Assembly: GCA_947470805.1 (NCBI GenBank)
Contig: CANIVU010000028.1
Span: 1-64,000 of the forward strand
Direction: 5' to 3'
Source of the DNA: Acidobacteriota bacterium
GTDB lineage: Bacteria; Acidobacteriota; Terriglobia; Bryobacterales; Bryobacteraceae
DNA length: 64,000 nucleotides
In this document: one piece after another, positions 5,863-33,877 of the stretch
How positions within the stretch are numbered: the stretch's first letter is position 1
Layout of the letters: each line of letters begins with the position of its first letter
Position numbers and translations under genes: made by a program
Notes under the pieces: generated by a model
What the model saw: the letters and a program-made list of their open reading frames with translations, nothing else
What the model was told of the DNA's origin: nothing
Database searches by the model: none

Positions 5863-7755
5863 GTGCGATTTATTGGGCTGTTTTTGATAATTCCGCTGGC
5901 GGCGCAGGTCCCGGATTTTGTGGGGAAGGTGTACCCGTTTCTGGACCGGGCGGGGTGCAAGGGGTGTCATAACGAGAATGGGGTAGCGTCGGCGAGCCGG
6001 TTGATTTTTCCGGGTGAAGGGGCGGGGGCGGACGAGATTTTGCGGGCGGGGATGGGCATGCGGCGATTGGTGCGGCGGGAACGGCCGGAGGAGTCGTTGT
6101 TGGTGTTGAAGCCGACGAATCGTGTGGCGCATGCGGGAGGCGTGCGGTTGGTGAAGGGGTCGGAGGGCGAGGCGGCGCTGCGGGGGTGGGCGGCGTATCT
6201 GGCTTCCCTGCCCGAGGGGGTTGGGGAGCGGCCGGCGGCGGCGCGGGCGCTGACGGTGGTGATGCGGCGGCTGACGCACGCACAGTACAACAACACTGTG
6301 GCCGATTTGCTGGGGGACCGGACGCGGCCGGCGAATCAGTTTCCGCCTGAGGACGTGGTTAACGGGTTTACGAATCAGGCGGCGGGCCAGAGTATTTCGC
6401 CGTTGATGGCGGAGGATTATGCGCGGGCGGCGGGGAGATTGGCGCGGAATGCGGCGCGGGCTGGGGCGCTGGCGCGGTTGATTCCTTGTGATAAGGCGCG
6501 GCCGGGGTGTAGCGCGGAGTTTGTCCGTTCGTTTGGAGAGCGAGCGTTCCGGCGACCGTTGACGGAGCGGGAGGTGGCGAGTTTTGTCCGGTTGCTGGGG
6601 GCGGATTTTGACGCGGTGACGGTTGTGGAGGCGATGTTGCAGTCGCCTGCATTTTTGTTTCATACGGGGACGGGGCAGTGGGCGACGGCTTCGCGGTTGT
6701 CCTATTTACTGTGGGATACGGCTCCGGATGCGACGTTGCGGGAGGCGGCGGCAAAGGGGCAACTGGGGACGCGGGCGCAGATTGAGGCGCAGGCGCGGCG
6801 GCTGATGGCCGATGGGCGGGCGCGGCTGGCAATGAATCAGTTTCTGGCGGAATGGCTGCGGTTTGACCGGGTGAAGGGGGCGCTGCGGGAGCGGAAGTTA
6901 TATCCGGAGTTCGGGGCAGAGTTGATTGGGGCCATGTTAGAGGAGACCAGCCGGTTATTTGGGCACTTAGTGTGGGAAGATAAGTCGATTCTTGAGTTTT
7001 TTACGGCGGAGTATAGTTTCTTGAGTTACTCGCTGGCGGGGCTGTATGAGGTTCCGGCGCCGGCTAGTGAGTTTGGGATGGTGCGGTTTCCGGCGGGCGG
7101 GAAGCGGGCGGGGGTGTTGGGACATGCCTCCTTTTTGACAGTTACTTCGAAGCCGGCGGAGACGGCACCGACGGAGCGCGGGTTGTTTGTGCGGGAACAC
7201 TTTTTGTGTCAGATGGTGCCGCCGCCACCGCCGGGCGTGAGCACGACGCTGCCGGTGATTTCCGATGAGAAGCCGATCACGAACCGGGAGCGGTTGGCGG
7301 GACATTTGTCGTCGCCGACGTGCGCGTCGTGTCACCGATTGGTGGACCCGATTGGCTTTGGATTTGAGCAGTTTGACGCGATTGGGCGGTACCGGGAAAA
7401 GCAGATTGCGCTGGTATATCCACCGGTGGATACGACGAAGAAGAACATCCGGCGGGACGGGGTGCCGGTGGCGGTTCCGGTGGACACGCGGGCAACCATC
7501 TTGGGGCTACCGAATTCAGATTTTTCGAACCCGGCCGAGGCGGGGCGGATATTGGCGGCAACGCCAGCGTGCCAGCGGTGCGTGGTAAAACAGTTTTTCC
7601 GTTATGCTACAGGCAGAGCCGAAACGGAGGCCGACCGGCCTCATTTGGACGAGGCATTTGACCGTTTTGTGAAATCGGGTTTCCGGTTCCGGGAACTGAT
7701 GTTAGCCGTAGTTACTTCGCGCCCGTTTTTAGAGGAGTCGTTGCATGGGAATTGA
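5863..7755 (+). CDS. DUF1592/DUF1588/DUF1587-type cytochrome-like exported protein
   Basis: 630 residues from a GTG at 5863, chosen because it begins a clean signal peptide ([15 protein letters not shown]). An N-terminal haem-like motif CKGCHNE lies near residue 26. Then in order: DUF1587 ([19 protein letters not shown]), DUF1595 ([19 protein letters not shown]), DUF1592 ([19 protein letters not shown]), DUF1588 ([20 protein letters not shown] and [19 protein letters not shown], giving another CxxCH) and DUF1585 ([19 protein letters not shown]). This is the standard order of the family. It is the first gene of a long plus-strand run and overlaps the DUF1552 gene by 11 bases, the usual pairing. 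Substrate unknown. Confidence 0.92.
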
Positions 7756-9046
7756 CACTAAGTTGAACCGGCGGAGCTTTCTGCGCGGGGTGGGCGTGGC
7801 GGGATCGGCCATTCGCGTTGGGCTGCCGCCGTTGGAGGCGATGTTCAATACGAGCGGGACGGCGTATGCGGCGGGCGTGGCGAAGGCGGTACCGAAGCGG
7901 TTTGTGTTCTGGTTCAACGGGAATGGGATTCCGGAAAAGTATTGGGTGCCACGGGAGACTGGGGCCGATTACGCGATGCCGTCGTGTTTGCAGCCGCTGG
8001 CGGCGTATCGCGACGATATGCATGTGGTGACCGGTTTGGACAGCGCGGCGGCGCGACTGCCGGGGCCGGGGAACAGCCATTACCCTTCGATGAGCGCGGT
8101 GGTTTCGTGCAAGACCTACACGGGGCGCGGGGCGGGCGGACCGTCGATTGACCAGGTAATTGCGCAGAAGATTGGCGGGGAGACGCGGTTCAGATCGTTG
8201 CAGGTGGGTGTGTGCCAGGAGTCATTTGGCGAGAGTATTCAACGTAACTTAAGCTGGGCGGACCGGGACCGGCCGTTGCCGCCGGAGATGATTCCGCACC
8301 GTTTGTTTGATCGCTTATTTGGGGTGAAGGACGCGGCATGGGTGACGCGGCAGAAGAGTATTTTGGACGCGGTGAAGGAGCAGACGGCGGCGTTGCAGGG
8401 GCGACTGGGGGCTTCCGACAAACGCAAGATGGACGAGTATCTGCAGTCGGTGCGGGAGTTGGAGACGTCGATTGCGACGCTGCCGCCGGAGTATCAGAAG
8501 GCGGTGGAGCGGCCGGCGGAAGCTGTCGATTTGCGGGACTATCCGCGAATTGCGAAGCTACAGAGCGACTTACTGGTTCACGCGCTGGCTTCGCAGCAGA
8601 CGCATGTGGCTTCCTATATGTTGACTAAGTGCCAGGGGTTGACGCGGTTTCCGTGGCTGGGACATACGGCGCAGCGTCATCATGAATACACACACGGAGA
8701 TGTGGAGACGCCGCGAGGGATGCGGACGTTGCGCGATATTTGCCGGTGGCATGTGGAGGAATTTGCGTATTTACTCGGGAAATTAAAGGCGACGGCGGAG
8801 GGGGAGAAGACGCTGTTGGATAACACGGCACTGGTGTTTGTGCATGAGCACGCAGAAGCGAATGCGCATAAGAACAACAATTTGGCGTTGATTTTGGCGG
8901 GTCATGCGGGCGGGTGGAAGACGGGACTGCACACACGGACGACGGGGACGTTGGGCGATTTGTATTTGACGGTGGCCAATGAGGTGATGGGCGCGCAGGT
9001 GAAGACGTTCCCGACAGCGGAGCGGAAGCTGAGCGAGATTGTGTGA
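7745..9046 (+). CDS. DUF1552 family exported protein (Tat signal)
   Basis: 433 residues. The N-terminus carries a Tat motif, [12 protein letters not shown], followed by family landmarks [64 protein letters not shown] and an H-rich C-terminal region ([14 protein letters not shown]). DUF1552 proteins accompany DUF1592-type cytochrome-like proteins and, like DUF1501, are periplasmic proteins of unknown catalytic role. The start codon lies inside the end of the preceding gene, indicating translational coupling. The stop TGA overlaps the start of the LRR gene. Confidence 0.92.
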
Positions 9047-10977
9047 TGCGGGTTTTGGCGTGGCTGGTTTTCGGATTGGCGGCGCTAGGTGGGCCGGCGG
9101 ACCAGGCGGTGGCGCGTTGGACGCTGCTGGAGGGCGGACGCGTGGGGATCGGCGGCCGGGTGATCTCCGACGTGACTGAGTTGCCGGTGGGCGATTTCGA
9201 GTTACAGATGGTGGACTGGGTGGCGGTGAACGCGGTGCCGGAGGACCTGGAACGGATGACCGGGTTGCGCGGGTTGCGGGAGTTACGGTTGCCGGGTCCG
9301 CTGTGGAACCGGAATGCGGATGGGGGGAAGGATCTTAGTAAGTTGTTGAAGTTTCTCGCGCCGGTGGCGGGGTTGGAGAAATTGACATTTAGCGATCATT
9401 TTCTGGACCGGATCCGGTTTCGTGATGCGGGGTTGGAGGAGATTCAAGCGCTGACGGGCTTGCGAGAGTTGGCGATGCGGCAGGCGGAGGTGAAGGGGCC
9501 GGGGTTGCGGCATTTTGTTCATTTGGAGTCGCTCGATGTGACACTGTGTCCGGTAGCGGATTTTGAGGGATTGCGGGGGATGAAGGGATTGCGGCGACTG
9601 TGGGCAGGAGACACGTTTGTTACTGATTTGGCGCCGCTGGCGGGGTTGACGGCGTTGGAAGATCTGGATCTGCACGGGACGGGGGTGCGGGATGAGGGGA
9701 TCGTTTATTTGGCTGGATTGCGGGGGCTTCGGCGGTTGGATTTGCAGGGGACTTCGATCACGGACGCGGCGATTGAGACACTTGAGAAGCTAGTTGGGTT
9801 GGAGTCATTGAATTTGTATCGGACTAAGATTTCAAACGCTGGTTTGGCGCGGCTTAGTAAGTTGAGCAAGTTACAGGATATTGACGTACGGTACACGCGC
9901 GTGACGGCTTCCGGTTATGACGCGTTGCGGGCGGCGTTGCCGGGAGCGCGGGTGCAGTTTGCCGGGGGCGGCGGGCGGGCGATTTCGAAATCTGTGCCGC
10001 CGAAGGGGAGTGACGCGGGGGCGTTGGCGGGGTGGGTGCGCTCGATTGGCGGGACGACGCGGATGGCGGATGGGTTTGTTTCGTTGCGCGGGGTGCCATT
10101 GAACGAGTCGGCCGTGGCGACTGTGGCGCGGATTCCGGGGTTGCGGGTGTTGGATTTGGAGGCGACGGAGTTGGGGGATGGGGCGATGGGGGTGTTGGGC
10201 GGGGTGGGGACGTTGGAGGAATTGACGTTGAATGGGACGCAGGTTTCCGATACCGGGTTGGTGGCGCTGGGGGAGTTGCGGGGGTTGAAGCGACTGCGAC
10301 TGGATAACACGTATGTGGAGGGGATGGCGTTTGCGCGGTGGCCGACGGGAGCGGGACTGGAGGAGTTGCACTTACTGGGAGCTCCGGTGGGGGATGGGGC
10401 GATGGAGGGGGTGGCGCGCCTTAGTAAGTTACGGCGGTTAGTGTTGGCGGAAAGTGATGTTACTGGGGTGGGGCTGGGGAAGCTAGTTGGGTTGGGGCTG
10501 GAGGAGTTGGATTTGTCGGCGGCGGATGTGGGGGATGATGCGCCATTGGAGAAGTTTACGAGACTGCGGCGGCTGGGGTTGCGGGATGCGCGGATCAGTG
10601 ATTTGATGCTGGCGCGGAAGCTGGCGGGAATGAAGAGCTTGCGGCATTTGGACTTGGCACGGACGCGGATTTCGAATGCGGGGATTGCTTATTTGGCGGG
10701 GTTGACAGGGTTGGAAAGTTTGGATCTGTCGTATGCCGAGTTAGATGACGAGGGGCTGGGGAAGCTGGTTGGTTTGGGAGAGCTGCTTTCGTTGAATCTG
10801 GACAGTACGCATGTGACGGATGGGGCGGTGGAGTTATTGGGAAAGATGAGTAAGTTGGAAAACGTGAACTTATATCATTCGCTGGTTACGGGGGCGGGTG
10901 AGGCGAAGTTGCGGGGGCGAGGGTTGCGGGTGATTTGGGATAAGAAGGCAGGTATGCCGCATCGGAGGCGGGCGTGA
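9046..10977 (+). CDS. Exported leucine-rich-repeat protein with two LRR modules
   Basis: 643 residues from ATG 9046, which overlaps the preceding stop by one base; a GTG at 9043 would add one residue. A signal peptide ([20 protein letters not shown]) is followed by two similar modules. Each begins with a short non-LRR cap (WTLLEGGRVGIGGRVISDV; WVRSIGGTTRMADGFVSL, the second near residue 330). Each is then followed by ~23-24-residue repeats of the L-x-x-L-x-L-x-x-T-x-(I/V)-x-(D/N)-x-(G/A) type, such as LRRLDLQGTSITDAAIETL and LRHLDLARTRISNAGIAYL. Such caps-plus-LRR proteins often accompany planctomycete-type cytochromes. Probably periplasmic and protein-binding; no catalytic residues are apparent. 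The 3' end lies inside the first unit of a tandem repeat (see 10964-11232). Confidence 0.85.
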   Translation: MRVLAWLVFGLAALGGPADQAVARWTLLEGGRVGIGGRVISDVTELPVGDFELQMVDWVAVNAVPEDLERMTGLRGLRELRLPGPLWNRNADGGKDLSKLLKFLAPVAGLEKLTFSDHFLDRIRFRDAGLEEIQALTGLRELAMRQAEVKGPGLRHFVHLESLDVTLCPVADFEGLRGMKGLRRLWAGDTFVTDLAPLAGLTALEDLDLHGTGVRDEGIVYLAGLRGLRRLDLQGTSITDAAIETLEKLVGLESLNLYRTKISNAGLARLSKLSKLQDIDVRYTRVTASGYDALRAALPGARVQFAGGGGRAISKSVPPKGSDAGALAGWVRSIGGTTRMADGFVSLRGVPLNESAVATVARIPGLRVLDLEATELGDGAMGVLGGVGTLEELTLNGTQVSDTGLVALGELRGLKRLRLDNTYVEGMAFARWPTGAGLEELHLLGAPVGDGAMEGVARLSKLRRLVLAESDVTGVGLGKLVGLGLEELDLSAADVGDDAPLEKFTRLRRLGLRDARISDLMLARKLAGMKSLRHLDLARTRISNAGIAYLAGLTGLESLDLSYAELDDEGLGKLVGLGELLSLNLDSTHVTDGAVELLGKMSKLENVNLYHSLVTGAGEAKLRGRGLRVIWDKKAGMPHRRRA

Positions 10978-11232
10978 GTGGAATGGGTCGGGGAATCCCG
11001 GAATTGCGGGGTTTTCCGGTAGCACGGCTCCAGGGGAAATCTGGGATGGATTGGGGGACGGGCAGGAGTGGATGGGTCACGGTATTCCCAAATTACGGAG
11101 TTTGCTGGTGTCACGGTACCAAGGGAAATCCGGGGCGGTTTGGGAGGCGGGCGTGAGGAGGACAGATCGGGTGATTCCTAAATTACGGAAGTTCCCGGTT
11201 ACCCGATACCCAGGGAAAGCTGGGGTGGTTTT
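10964..11232 (+). repeat. Three tandem ~90-bp repeats spanning the junction of the two LRR genes
   Basis: Three degenerate units begin at about 10964, 11054 and 11143 (spacing 90 then 89). Each has a ggaggcgggc-like start, then an attccc/aaattacgg core, a cacggtacc-like block, and agggaaatc(c/t)gggg. Unit 1 contains the stop codon of the upstream LRR gene. Unit 3 contains the AGGAGG ribosome site and the first codons of the downstream LRR gene. Translated in the downstream frame, units 2 and 3 read GIPKLRSLLVSRYQGKSG and VIPKLRKFPVTRYPGKAG. The repeats are seen directly; an origin by tandem duplication of the gene-junction segment is inference. Confidence 0.8.
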
Positions 11233-12160
11233 GATGTTTTTGGGGGTGGCTTGGGGGCAGGCGGCCCTGGATTTGTCGGCGTCTTGGACTACTGATGGAG
11301 AGTTGCATCGGGTGGCTGGGATGGCTCGGTTGGAACGGCTCAGTTTGGGTCAGACGCGGGTCACGGACGCAGGGCTGGAACGGCTTAGGGAACTGCGGAA
11401 TTTGCGGGAACTCGATTTGTATTTTGCGGAGTTTTTTACTGACGATGGGGTGGCATCGCTGACCGGGATGCAGAAGCTGGAACGGCTGAATTTGCGGGGA
11501 ACCAAGGTCACCAGCAGGGTATTTGAGGCGGTTTCAAAGCTGTCGGCATTAAGGAGTTTGGACGTGGGTTACTCGCAGATCGATGACAGCGGGGTGGAGA
11601 TGCTGGCGGAGTTGCCGGTGCTGGAACGTCTGGCGATGGGTGGGACGAGGATTGGGGTGGTCGCGTTGTCCGCGTTGAAGGCGTTGCCGGCGTTGCGGCA
11701 TTTGGATTTGAGCGGGATGCAAAGGGTGGATTCCGGGCATTGGGGGTTGACGCTGAGCGCGGCGGTGCTGGCGGAGTTGGGAACATTAGAGGGGTTGGAA
11801 TCGCTGAATTTGAGCGGGGCGGTATTGAATGATATTGGGGCGGATAAGCCGGGGTTGAAGGAGGAGCAGCGGCAGTCACTGGATGGGTTGGAGAAGTTGG
11901 GAGGGCTGCGGAAGCTGGAGAAGCTGGACTTGAGCCGGACACCGGTGAACGCGGCGGGGGTGCGGGCGCTGGCGGGACTGGGGCAATTGCGGGAGTTGCG
12001 ATTGGCGTTGGCGAAGAACATCGATGACGCGGTGGTGCCGGTGTTGATTGGAATGAAATCGCTGCGGGTGGTTGCGCTGGAGGGCACACGCGTTACACTG
12101 GACGGCGTGGCGCAGCTACGCGCGGCGCGGCCGGATATACAACTTTTGGGACCGTCATAA
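11171..12160 (+). CDS. Second exported leucine-rich-repeat protein
   Basis: 329 residues from GTG 11171, chosen because AGGAGG (11156-11161) sits 9 bases upstream and the start then gives a normal signal peptide: basic MIPKLRKFPVTRYPGKAG, hydrophobic VVLMFLGVAWG, then QA. Without this start (next candidates GTG 11225, ATG 11234) the basic region would be lost. The mature protein is LRRs throughout, e.g. LERLSLGQTRVTDAGLERL, LERLNLRGTKVTSRVFEAV, LEKLDLSRTPVNAAGVRAL. There is no cap module like that of its neighbour. Only 20 bases separate it from the hydrolase gene downstream, suggesting continuation of the operon. The role is unknown; protein binding is inferred. Confidence 0.8.
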   Translation: MIPKLRKFPVTRYPGKAGVVLMFLGVAWGQAALDLSASWTTDGELHRVAGMARLERLSLGQTRVTDAGLERLRELRNLRELDLYFAEFFTDDGVASLTGMQKLERLNLRGTKVTSRVFEAVSKLSALRSLDVGYSQIDDSGVEMLAELPVLERLAMGGTRIGVVALSALKALPALRHLDLSGMQRVDSGHWGLTLSAAVLAELGTLEGLESLNLSGAVLNDIGADKPGLKEEQRQSLDGLEKLGGLRKLEKLDLSRTPVNAAGVRALAGLGQLRELRLALAKNIDDAVVPVLIGMKSLRVVALEGTRVTLDGVAQLRAARPDIQLLGPS

Positions 12161-32651: not shown

Positions 32652-33856
32652 TGGCGGCTGGCGTCGTGATCGCCGGCGCGGGGCAGGCCGGTTTTCAGGC
32701 CGCTTGTTCGCTTCGCACGGAAGGGTACACGGGCCCGATCACGCTGGTGGGCGAGGAAGCGGGACTGCCGTATCAGCGGCCGCCGCTTTCCAAGGGCTGT
32801 TTGCGCGGCAAGCAGGAGTTGGACGAGATCGATCTGCGGCCGGTGGCCTTCTACGAAAAGCAGGACATCACGCTGCGGATGGGGGAGCGGATTCTGGCGA
32901 TTGACCGGGACGCGCGGCGCGTTTATTTGGCGGATGGGGAGGGGTTGGAATACGACTATCTGCTGCTGGCGACGGGGGCGAGTAATCGCCGGTTAGCCGG
33001 GCCGGGGGCGCTGTATTTGCGGACTCGCGAAGAGGCCGCGATGCTGCTGACGGAGTTGGAGGCGGCGGAGCGACTGGTGGTTGTGGGCGGCGGTTTTATT
33101 GGGCTGGAAGTGGCGGCGGCGGCGACGGCGCTGGAGCGGAAGGTGACGGTTGTGGAGCCGCAGGAGCGGCTGATGCAGCGCGCGGTGGGGCCGATTATTT
33201 CCGAGTATTTCCGGGCCATGCATGTGGGGCACGGGGTGGAGTTTGTGTTTGGCGAAGGGTGCACGGGGATTGACGACGACGGCGCTGTGCGGCTGACGAA
33301 TGGGGCCGTGCTGCCGGCGGATATGGTGGTGGCGGGGATTGGCGTGACGCCGCGGGCGGAGTTGGCAGTGGCGGCGGGGTTGTCTGTGGCCAATGGGATT
33401 GTCGTCGACGATTATTTGCGGACGGCGGATGAGCGAATCTATGCGATTGGGGATTGCGCCTCGTTTCCATCTCGGTTCGCGGGCGGGATGGCGCGGTTGG
33501 AATCGGTACAGAACGCGGTCGACCAGGCACGGTGTTTCGCGGAGGCGGTGTGCGGGCGGCCGCGGCCGTACGATGCGGTGCCGTGGTTCTGGACCGACCA
33601 GTTTGAAGCAAAGCTGCAAATGGTGGGCATTTCGCAGGGGTTTGACTGTGAAGTGACGCGCGGGGATCTGGCCAGCGGCAAGTTTTCGGTTTGCTATTTT
33701 CGGGACGGGCGGTTGATTGCGATCGACTCGGTGAACCGGCCGGCAGACCATTTGGCGGGGCGGAAGCTGATCGCGTATGGCGGGGGTATCACGCCGGAGC
33801 AGGCGGGGGATACGGAGTTTGACTTGAAGGTGGCGGCTCAGACAATTCCTGGGTGA
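32651..33856 (+). CDS. NAD(P)H-dependent ferredoxin reductase (FAD)
   Basis: 401 residues from a GTG that shares a base with the ferredoxin stop (tagtg). N-terminal FAD Rossmann motif GAGQAGFQAACSLR, then YQRPPLSKGCLRG, a second nucleotide-binding motif VVGGGFIGLEVAAAATAL (~140-157), IYAIGDCASFPSRF and a reductase C-terminal domain (PWFWTDQFEAKLQMVGIS, ~298-316). This is the rhodocoxin/putidaredoxin-reductase family, which reduces the partner ferredoxin. Last gene of the operon; its stop codon lies inside a long hairpin that follows. Confidence 0.92.
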   Translation: MAAGVVIAGAGQAGFQAACSLRTEGYTGPITLVGEEAGLPYQRPPLSKGCLRGKQELDEIDLRPVAFYEKQDITLRMGERILAIDRDARRVYLADGEGLEYDYLLLATGASNRRLAGPGALYLRTREEAAMLLTELEAAERLVVVGGGFIGLEVAAAATALERKVTVVEPQERLMQRAVGPIISEYFRAMHVGHGVEFVFGEGCTGIDDDGAVRLTNGAVLPADMVVAGIGVTPRAELAVAAGLSVANGIVVDDYLRTADERIYAIGDCASFPSRFAGGMARLESVQNAVDQARCFAEAVCGRPRPYDAVPWFWTDQFEAKLQMVGISQGFDCEVTRGDLASGKFSVCYFRDGRLIAIDSVNRPADHLAGRKLIAYGGGITPEQAGDTEFDLKVAAQTIPG

Positions 33857-33877
33857 CTGTCACCCAGGAATTGTCTG
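33839..33877. terminator. Perfect 18-bp hairpin between convergent genes, likely bidirectional terminator
   Basis: Arms cagacaattcctgggtga (33839-33856) and tcacccaggaattgtctg (33860-33877) are exact complements, with a 3-base loop. The stop codon of the ferredoxin reductase is the end of the left arm. The convergent SDR gene ends one base beyond the right arm, at 33879. There is no clear T-run on either side, so termination may rely on the stem or on Rho. Confidence 0.75.

Follow-up and report, generated by a model that had tools for sequence, protein, structure and literature searches.

In the 64,000-nucleotide stretch of Acidobacteriota DNA analysed here (the window), the junction of two LRR genes holds three related units, at 10964–11232. 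These probably represent a dispersed repeat that is lineage-specific, REP-like and RAYT-associated, arrayed head-to-tail in a short series directly behind the coupled stop/start overlap of the two genes. Direct backing comes from the repeat family and its palindrome, the narrow range of the family, the ATGA empty sites of related genomes, the duplicated host module and the number of units in a congener. The features of the junction are as follows.

9043–10977, + strand: LRR gene 1, with its stop TGA at 10975–10977
10964–10978, + strand: original host module GGAGGCGGGCGTGAG, made of a Shine-Dalgarno sequence and the GTGA stop/start overlap with which LRR gene 1 ends; matches ..GGAGGCGGGCATGAgg.. 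of the empty sites
10974–11156, + strand: putative relay ORF, 60 codons of REP sequence, from a GTG over the gene 1 stop to a TGA over GTG 11153
10990–11048, + strand: unit 1, REP-like element of subtype A, core GGTAGCACGGCTCC (CM R1, 72 bits at 10982–11054)
11054–11068, + strand: decayed module copy GGGGACGGGCAGGAG, 11/15 identical, before unit B
11079–11137, + strand: unit 2, REP-like element of subtype B, core GGTGTCACGGTACC (CM R1, 64.6 bits at 11070–11143)
11143–11157, + strand: exact duplicate of the module, before unit C; its GTG 11153 is in the frame of LRR gene 2
11153–12160, + strand: LRR gene 2, 335 aa from GTG 11153, its first ~27 codons falling within the copied module and REP unit C
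11169–11227, + strand: unit 3, REP-like element of subtype C, core GGTTACCCGATACC (CM R1, 57.4 bits at 11161–11232)

Units at the LRR Gene Junction

An earlier note on this DNA had described three units with 90/89-base spacing, the first of them containing the gene 1 stop codon, and both descriptions hold. Unit-against-unit local scores are 34–38, far above the value of ~8 ± 3–4 for random window segments, and the unit bodies are 66–71% identical in pairwise comparison. Tandem Repeats Finder places an array of period 89 at 10964–11152. The repeat model described below matches the window exactly three times, always on the + strand and at the intervals listed above, and the units follow in the order A, B, C, the last doubling as coding sequence for the N terminus of LRR gene 2. 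LRR gene 1 overlaps the preceding gene by GTGA (9043–9046), neighbors further upstream overlap by 11 bp (7745–7755), and the array is the sole gap seen among the run of overlapping genes around LRR gene 1.

The same note had taken the units for decayed copies of the LRR gene start. This does not stand, as the unit body is a dispersed REP-like repeat of ~59 bp with a conserved imperfect palindrome, of which the genome holds over 100 copies. A BLAST search with 10964–11245 against the source genome (8.7 Mb) found 56 places on many contigs. Each unit has its nearest relatives either at other loci or at the orthologous site of the congener G010: unit 1 is 96% identical to its G010 orthologue and 85–89% to copies elsewhere, unit 2 is closest (91%) to a G010 copy at a different locus, and unit 3 is 98% identical to its G010 orthologue. 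Sibling units rank just 52nd–130th of 137 among each other's relatives. Thus, with their best relatives elsewhere, the units of the window are not simple duplicates of one another. The core of the penultimate unit is B in the window (11079–11137) and C in G010 (L110), although the flanks match, suggesting that conversion between dispersed copies may have switched the core.

A Dispersed Repeat Family with a Conserved Palindrome

We built a 76-column model from an alignment of 31 copies, and it finds at least 102 matches of the main repeat in the source genome, a lower bound with 150 of 2797 candidates scored. Among 60 relatives, the repeat is present in two congeners, G010 (80 copies) and G004 (42 copies), and absent from the other 58, which include 16 congeners. 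Over 150 aligned copies, the dominant core subtypes are GGTAGC(A/C)CGGCTCC (A), GGTGTCACGGTACC (B) and GGTTACCCGGTACC (C). Around the core lies an imperfect palindrome of 14 pairs, in which 90.9% of cells are paired; when the partner strand is slid as a control, pairing drops to 21–67% of cells. Compensatory change between A and C is clear, and 32 sequences carry double compensatory changes at two core pairs. The register fits subtype B less well. Folded as single strands, the three units of the window are no different in energy from shuffles (z 0.1 to −1.4), so the palindrome is argued from conservation and not from stability.

By the approximate gene calls of a home-made codon-usage caller, 126/150 copies overlap predicted genes by at most 15 nt. 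Sorted by gene pair, 33 repeat clusters are convergent, 40 codirectional and 3 divergent; divergent pairs are avoided (3 versus 33 convergent clusters, p = 2e-7). Two or more units are present in 35/85 clusters, neighboring copies share their orientation in 64/65 cases, and start-to-start distances are mostly ~60–105 bp. Spacers within arrays are more alike than spacers between arrays (p ~1e-10). Of the expansions seen in this family, the one that looks most recent is a locus elsewhere in the genome (L002, G000:C98, 1327–1815), where six repeats alternate between A and B with a 165-bp period and 94% identity. A scan of viral contigs with a 16-mer core gave 24 single matches, none listed in tandem, which we take as chance. 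A search against Rfam gave nothing at gathering thresholds; the best match, WT1-AS_2 (E 0.67), is also attributed to chance.

Empty Sites and a Duplicated Host Module

Seven congeners have the junction free of repeats. In these, LRR gene 1 ends in ..GGAGGCGGGC-ATGA.. or a close variant, with its TGA overlapping the ATG of gene 2, which in the closest relatives lies 5 nt behind GGAGG. The module of the window is GGAGGCGGGC-GTGA, followed by unit A. The ATGA overlap of the two genes in these congeners argues that the repeat was inserted just behind the start codon. An ATGA junction of this kind is a usual setting for translational coupling; PMC6728339 deals with such overlaps and with termination-reinitiation. 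Where records of the nearest orthologues are named, they are metagenome-assembled genomes under the labels Candidatus Sulfopaludibacter sp. SbA3 or Acidobacteria bacterium. For a second empty-site comparison, the gene next to the copy at C21:76108 has orthologues in three congeners only, all repeat-free. In G004, an orthologue of LRR gene 1 was not found, and the contig begins inside gene 2.

Within the window, the exact 15-mer GGAGGCGGGCGTGAG occurs in only two places (10964–10978 and 11143–11157), and upstream of repeat copies at other loci the module score reaches at most 12/15. The exact 15-mer before unit C, together with the decayed one before unit B, indicates that host junction sequence was duplicated with the repeats. 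At the orthologous junction of G010, there are ~5 units versus 3 in the window, in keeping with the copy-number change that the earlier note had foreseen.

These observations bear on the note's main proposal, in which the LRR gene junction underwent repeated tandem duplication or collapse and the units are decayed starts of gene 2. A part of it survives: the 15-bp module is indeed junction sequence, copied exactly before unit 3 and at 11/15 positions before unit 2, and the likeness of spacers within arrays also fits local duplication. The unit body, however, does not derive from the junction. It recurs over 100 times at sites away from LRR genes, the units are closer to copies elsewhere than to one another, and the comparison with relatives that the note had called for yields seven junctions without any repeat. 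As an account of the whole feature, we consider this proposal improbable and favor arrival of a dispersed repeat followed by duplication of host module and repeat together.

A Putative Relay and the Start of LRR Gene 2

The relay ORF passes through units A and B up to the TGA within the duplicated module. The corresponding path in G010 reads gene 1, GTGA, 82 codons, ATGA, 30 codons, GTGA, gene 2. For random inserts of the same composition, the chance that such an interval is open and in phase is 0.09 in the window and 0.05 and 0.08 in G010. A relay in two species is suggestive but no proof, since the pattern was found post hoc in genomes of shared ancestry and could be due to chance.

The likeliest start of LRR gene 2 is GTG 11153 rather than GTG 11171. 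The two share a frame, and GTG 11153 follows GGAGG at a distance of 5 nt, the context in which repeat-free relatives have their start. GTG 11153 is favored because the relay ORF ends exactly at a GTGA whose GTG is in frame with gene 2, and because G010 has the equivalent in three steps. The AGGAGG (11156–11161), GTG 11171 and peptides quoted in the earlier note are all present, and the start that it chose is plausible; GTG 11153 is the better candidate. In G010, the AGGAGG before GTG 11171 is AGGGGG, and ATG 11234 is GTG. In the repeat-free congeners, alignment with gene 2 orthologues begins only at about residue 21 of the GTG 11171 product. With either GTG, as the note had proposed, REP sequence would encode the basic region before the hydrophobic stretch of what appears from sequence to be a signal peptide. 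Synonymous and nonsynonymous differences in unit 3 number 2/0 in REP codons and 2/2 in module codons, too few to date the start.

One could also suppose that the array is a regulatory leader, kept by selection as an attenuator or leader peptide that controls LRR gene 2. Relay ORFs of like form in two species speak for this, as does one weak terminator-like stem at 11209–11224; this count of 1, however, compares with 0.9 expected from shuffles, unit number and relay length vary between the species, and Rfam gave no match at the gathering score of any family. Such a leader seems highly improbable, and a dispersed repeat inserted behind a coupled overlap accounts better for the array.

Y1/HUH Transposases and a Second Palindrome Family

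The source genome has eight Y1_Tnp matches. One of these genes, P0002 (C20:45991–46554), has two copies of the main repeat upstream and one downstream, all within ~170 bp; none lies beside the other seven Y1 loci of the genome. P0002 has the features of a Y1 HUH transposase: a Y1_Tnp domain (Pfam PF01797, 41.5 bits against a cut-off of 23), the HUH motif NHYH, and the motif YVERNP with the catalytic Tyr. A search of the PDB returned TnpArep (4er8) as the sole match, a weak one (E 0.26). P0002 is probably a RAYT-like transposase, tied to the main repeat by its flanking position.

A paralogue of P0002 at C13, the second RAYT-like gene, has a different palindrome on both sides, built around GGGTGACAGTCACCC, and its G004 homologue is flanked by the same type. 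This second family counts ~73 copies in the source genome, 40 in G004 and ~10 in G010, with 0–2 matches in four other congeners. That two RAYT-like genes are each flanked by an amplified palindrome of their own is the pattern expected of REP-RAYT pairs, and mobilization of each palindrome by its gene would be consistent with it. The RAYT homologue of G010 (L162, G010:C731, ~295–846) has weak REP-like flanks and an in-frame TAG in place of the YVERNP tyrosine; it looks inactivated, though G010 keeps ~80 copies of the main repeat. G004 holds 42 copies, yet its only close RAYT homologue is the one flanked by the other palindrome.

This last point could be turned toward a different source of mobility, namely a dispersed MITE-like repeat, or some other short one, that owes its movement to an unrelated transposase or to recombination, with the copies around the RAYT gene a secondary insertion. 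Persistence of the family in G004 in the absence of a repeat-flanked RAYT, the missing canonical unpaired GTAG foot, and arrays that are direct instead of alternating (64/65 neighbors on the same strand) would all suit such an element. But copies lie tight on both sides of one RAYT gene, and in two species another RAYT-like gene has a different amplified palindrome beside it. We therefore regard this source as unlikely and retain a RAYT-associated repeat.

Discussion

How might the junction have reached its present form? We propose the following. The repeat would have inserted directly behind the stop/start overlap, ancestrally ATGA, of two LRR genes in an apparent operon. Its spread would occur in trans through the Y1/HUH transposase that it flanks, as its position suggests. 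The array may have grown by local duplication of the host module together with the repeat. Conversion between dispersed copies could account for the subtype differences. Translational coupling may have been preserved along the path gene 1, GTGA, 60-codon REP ORF, GTGA, gene 2, because a stop/start overlap comes with each retained copy of the module and no stop interrupts the repeat in the frame required. A more tentative extension, which we put forward as possible but doubtful, is that units with a copied stop/start overlap serve as translational relay modules, so that the array can change size without uncoupling the genes and can donate the downstream N terminus.

As far as the literature covered here shows, the main repeat family, its pairing with P0002, and insertion in a stop/start overlap with duplicated modules are new. 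The genome appears to offer a new RAYT-associated REP-like family in Acidobacteriota, along with a second palindrome family and a second RAYT-like gene, and the junction offers a clean before/after view of how a coupled stop/start overlap was invaded by a repeat. Should the relay hold true, it shows how a tightly overlapping operon can tolerate mobile repeats, and how a secreted protein can come to begin with repeat sequence.

The closest known system is the REP or REPtron with its RAYT (TnpA_REP) (PMC2817692, PMC3733652, PMC6006769). Alike are the small imperfect palindrome, ~100 copies and several subtypes; the extragenic location with convergent bias, and dimers or clusters with duplicated flanking DNA; and a RAYT-type gene flanked by copies, with REPs sometimes read into ORFs. 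In contrast, the element here is 59 bp long, has no unpaired GTAG foot, forms arrays that are almost always head-to-tail, and comes from Acidobacteriota. Measured against REPs of the GTAG type, the main repeat has a conserved short imperfect palindrome, a high extragenic copy number and a flanked RAYT gene. An unpaired GTAG or GTGG 5′ of the stem is absent: subtype A has its GTAG within the stem, and neither B nor C has one. The alternating orientation of BIMEs is likewise absent, with all but one of 65 neighboring copies oriented alike. By analogy, the main repeat would work like a REP/RAYT system that lacks two classical traits, the GTAG foot and BIME alternation.

Two other systems come from the same phylum. 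Solibacter and other Acidobacteria have a class 3 TnpA_Y1 with ~600 atypical hairpins (PMC6006769), where an amplified atypical palindrome flanks the Y1 gene, as it does here. Assignment of P0002 to class 3 was considered and rejected: its motif YVERNP is of the class 2 type and not Y----Q (as defined in PMC6006769). In the TIRtrons of Acidobacteria such as Koribacter versatilis (PMC3733652), the flanking repeats of the Y1 gene also form a repeat family; unlike these, the copies flanking P0002 (RAYT-1) are direct repeats and not terminal inverted repeats.

REPs that supply stop codons or protein segments are on record (PMC3733652). Intragenic REPs and the Rickettsia palindromic elements (RPE; PMC3733652) resemble unit 3 in that a palindromic repeat gives codons to a host protein, whereas here the units are several, sit within a stop/start overlap and bring along a duplicate of that overlap. 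The second palindrome family also has a copy in the window, the near-perfect palindrome AGACAATTCCTGGGTGACTGTCACCCAGGAATTGTCT at 33840–33877, which appears to give the left-hand gene its TGA stop.
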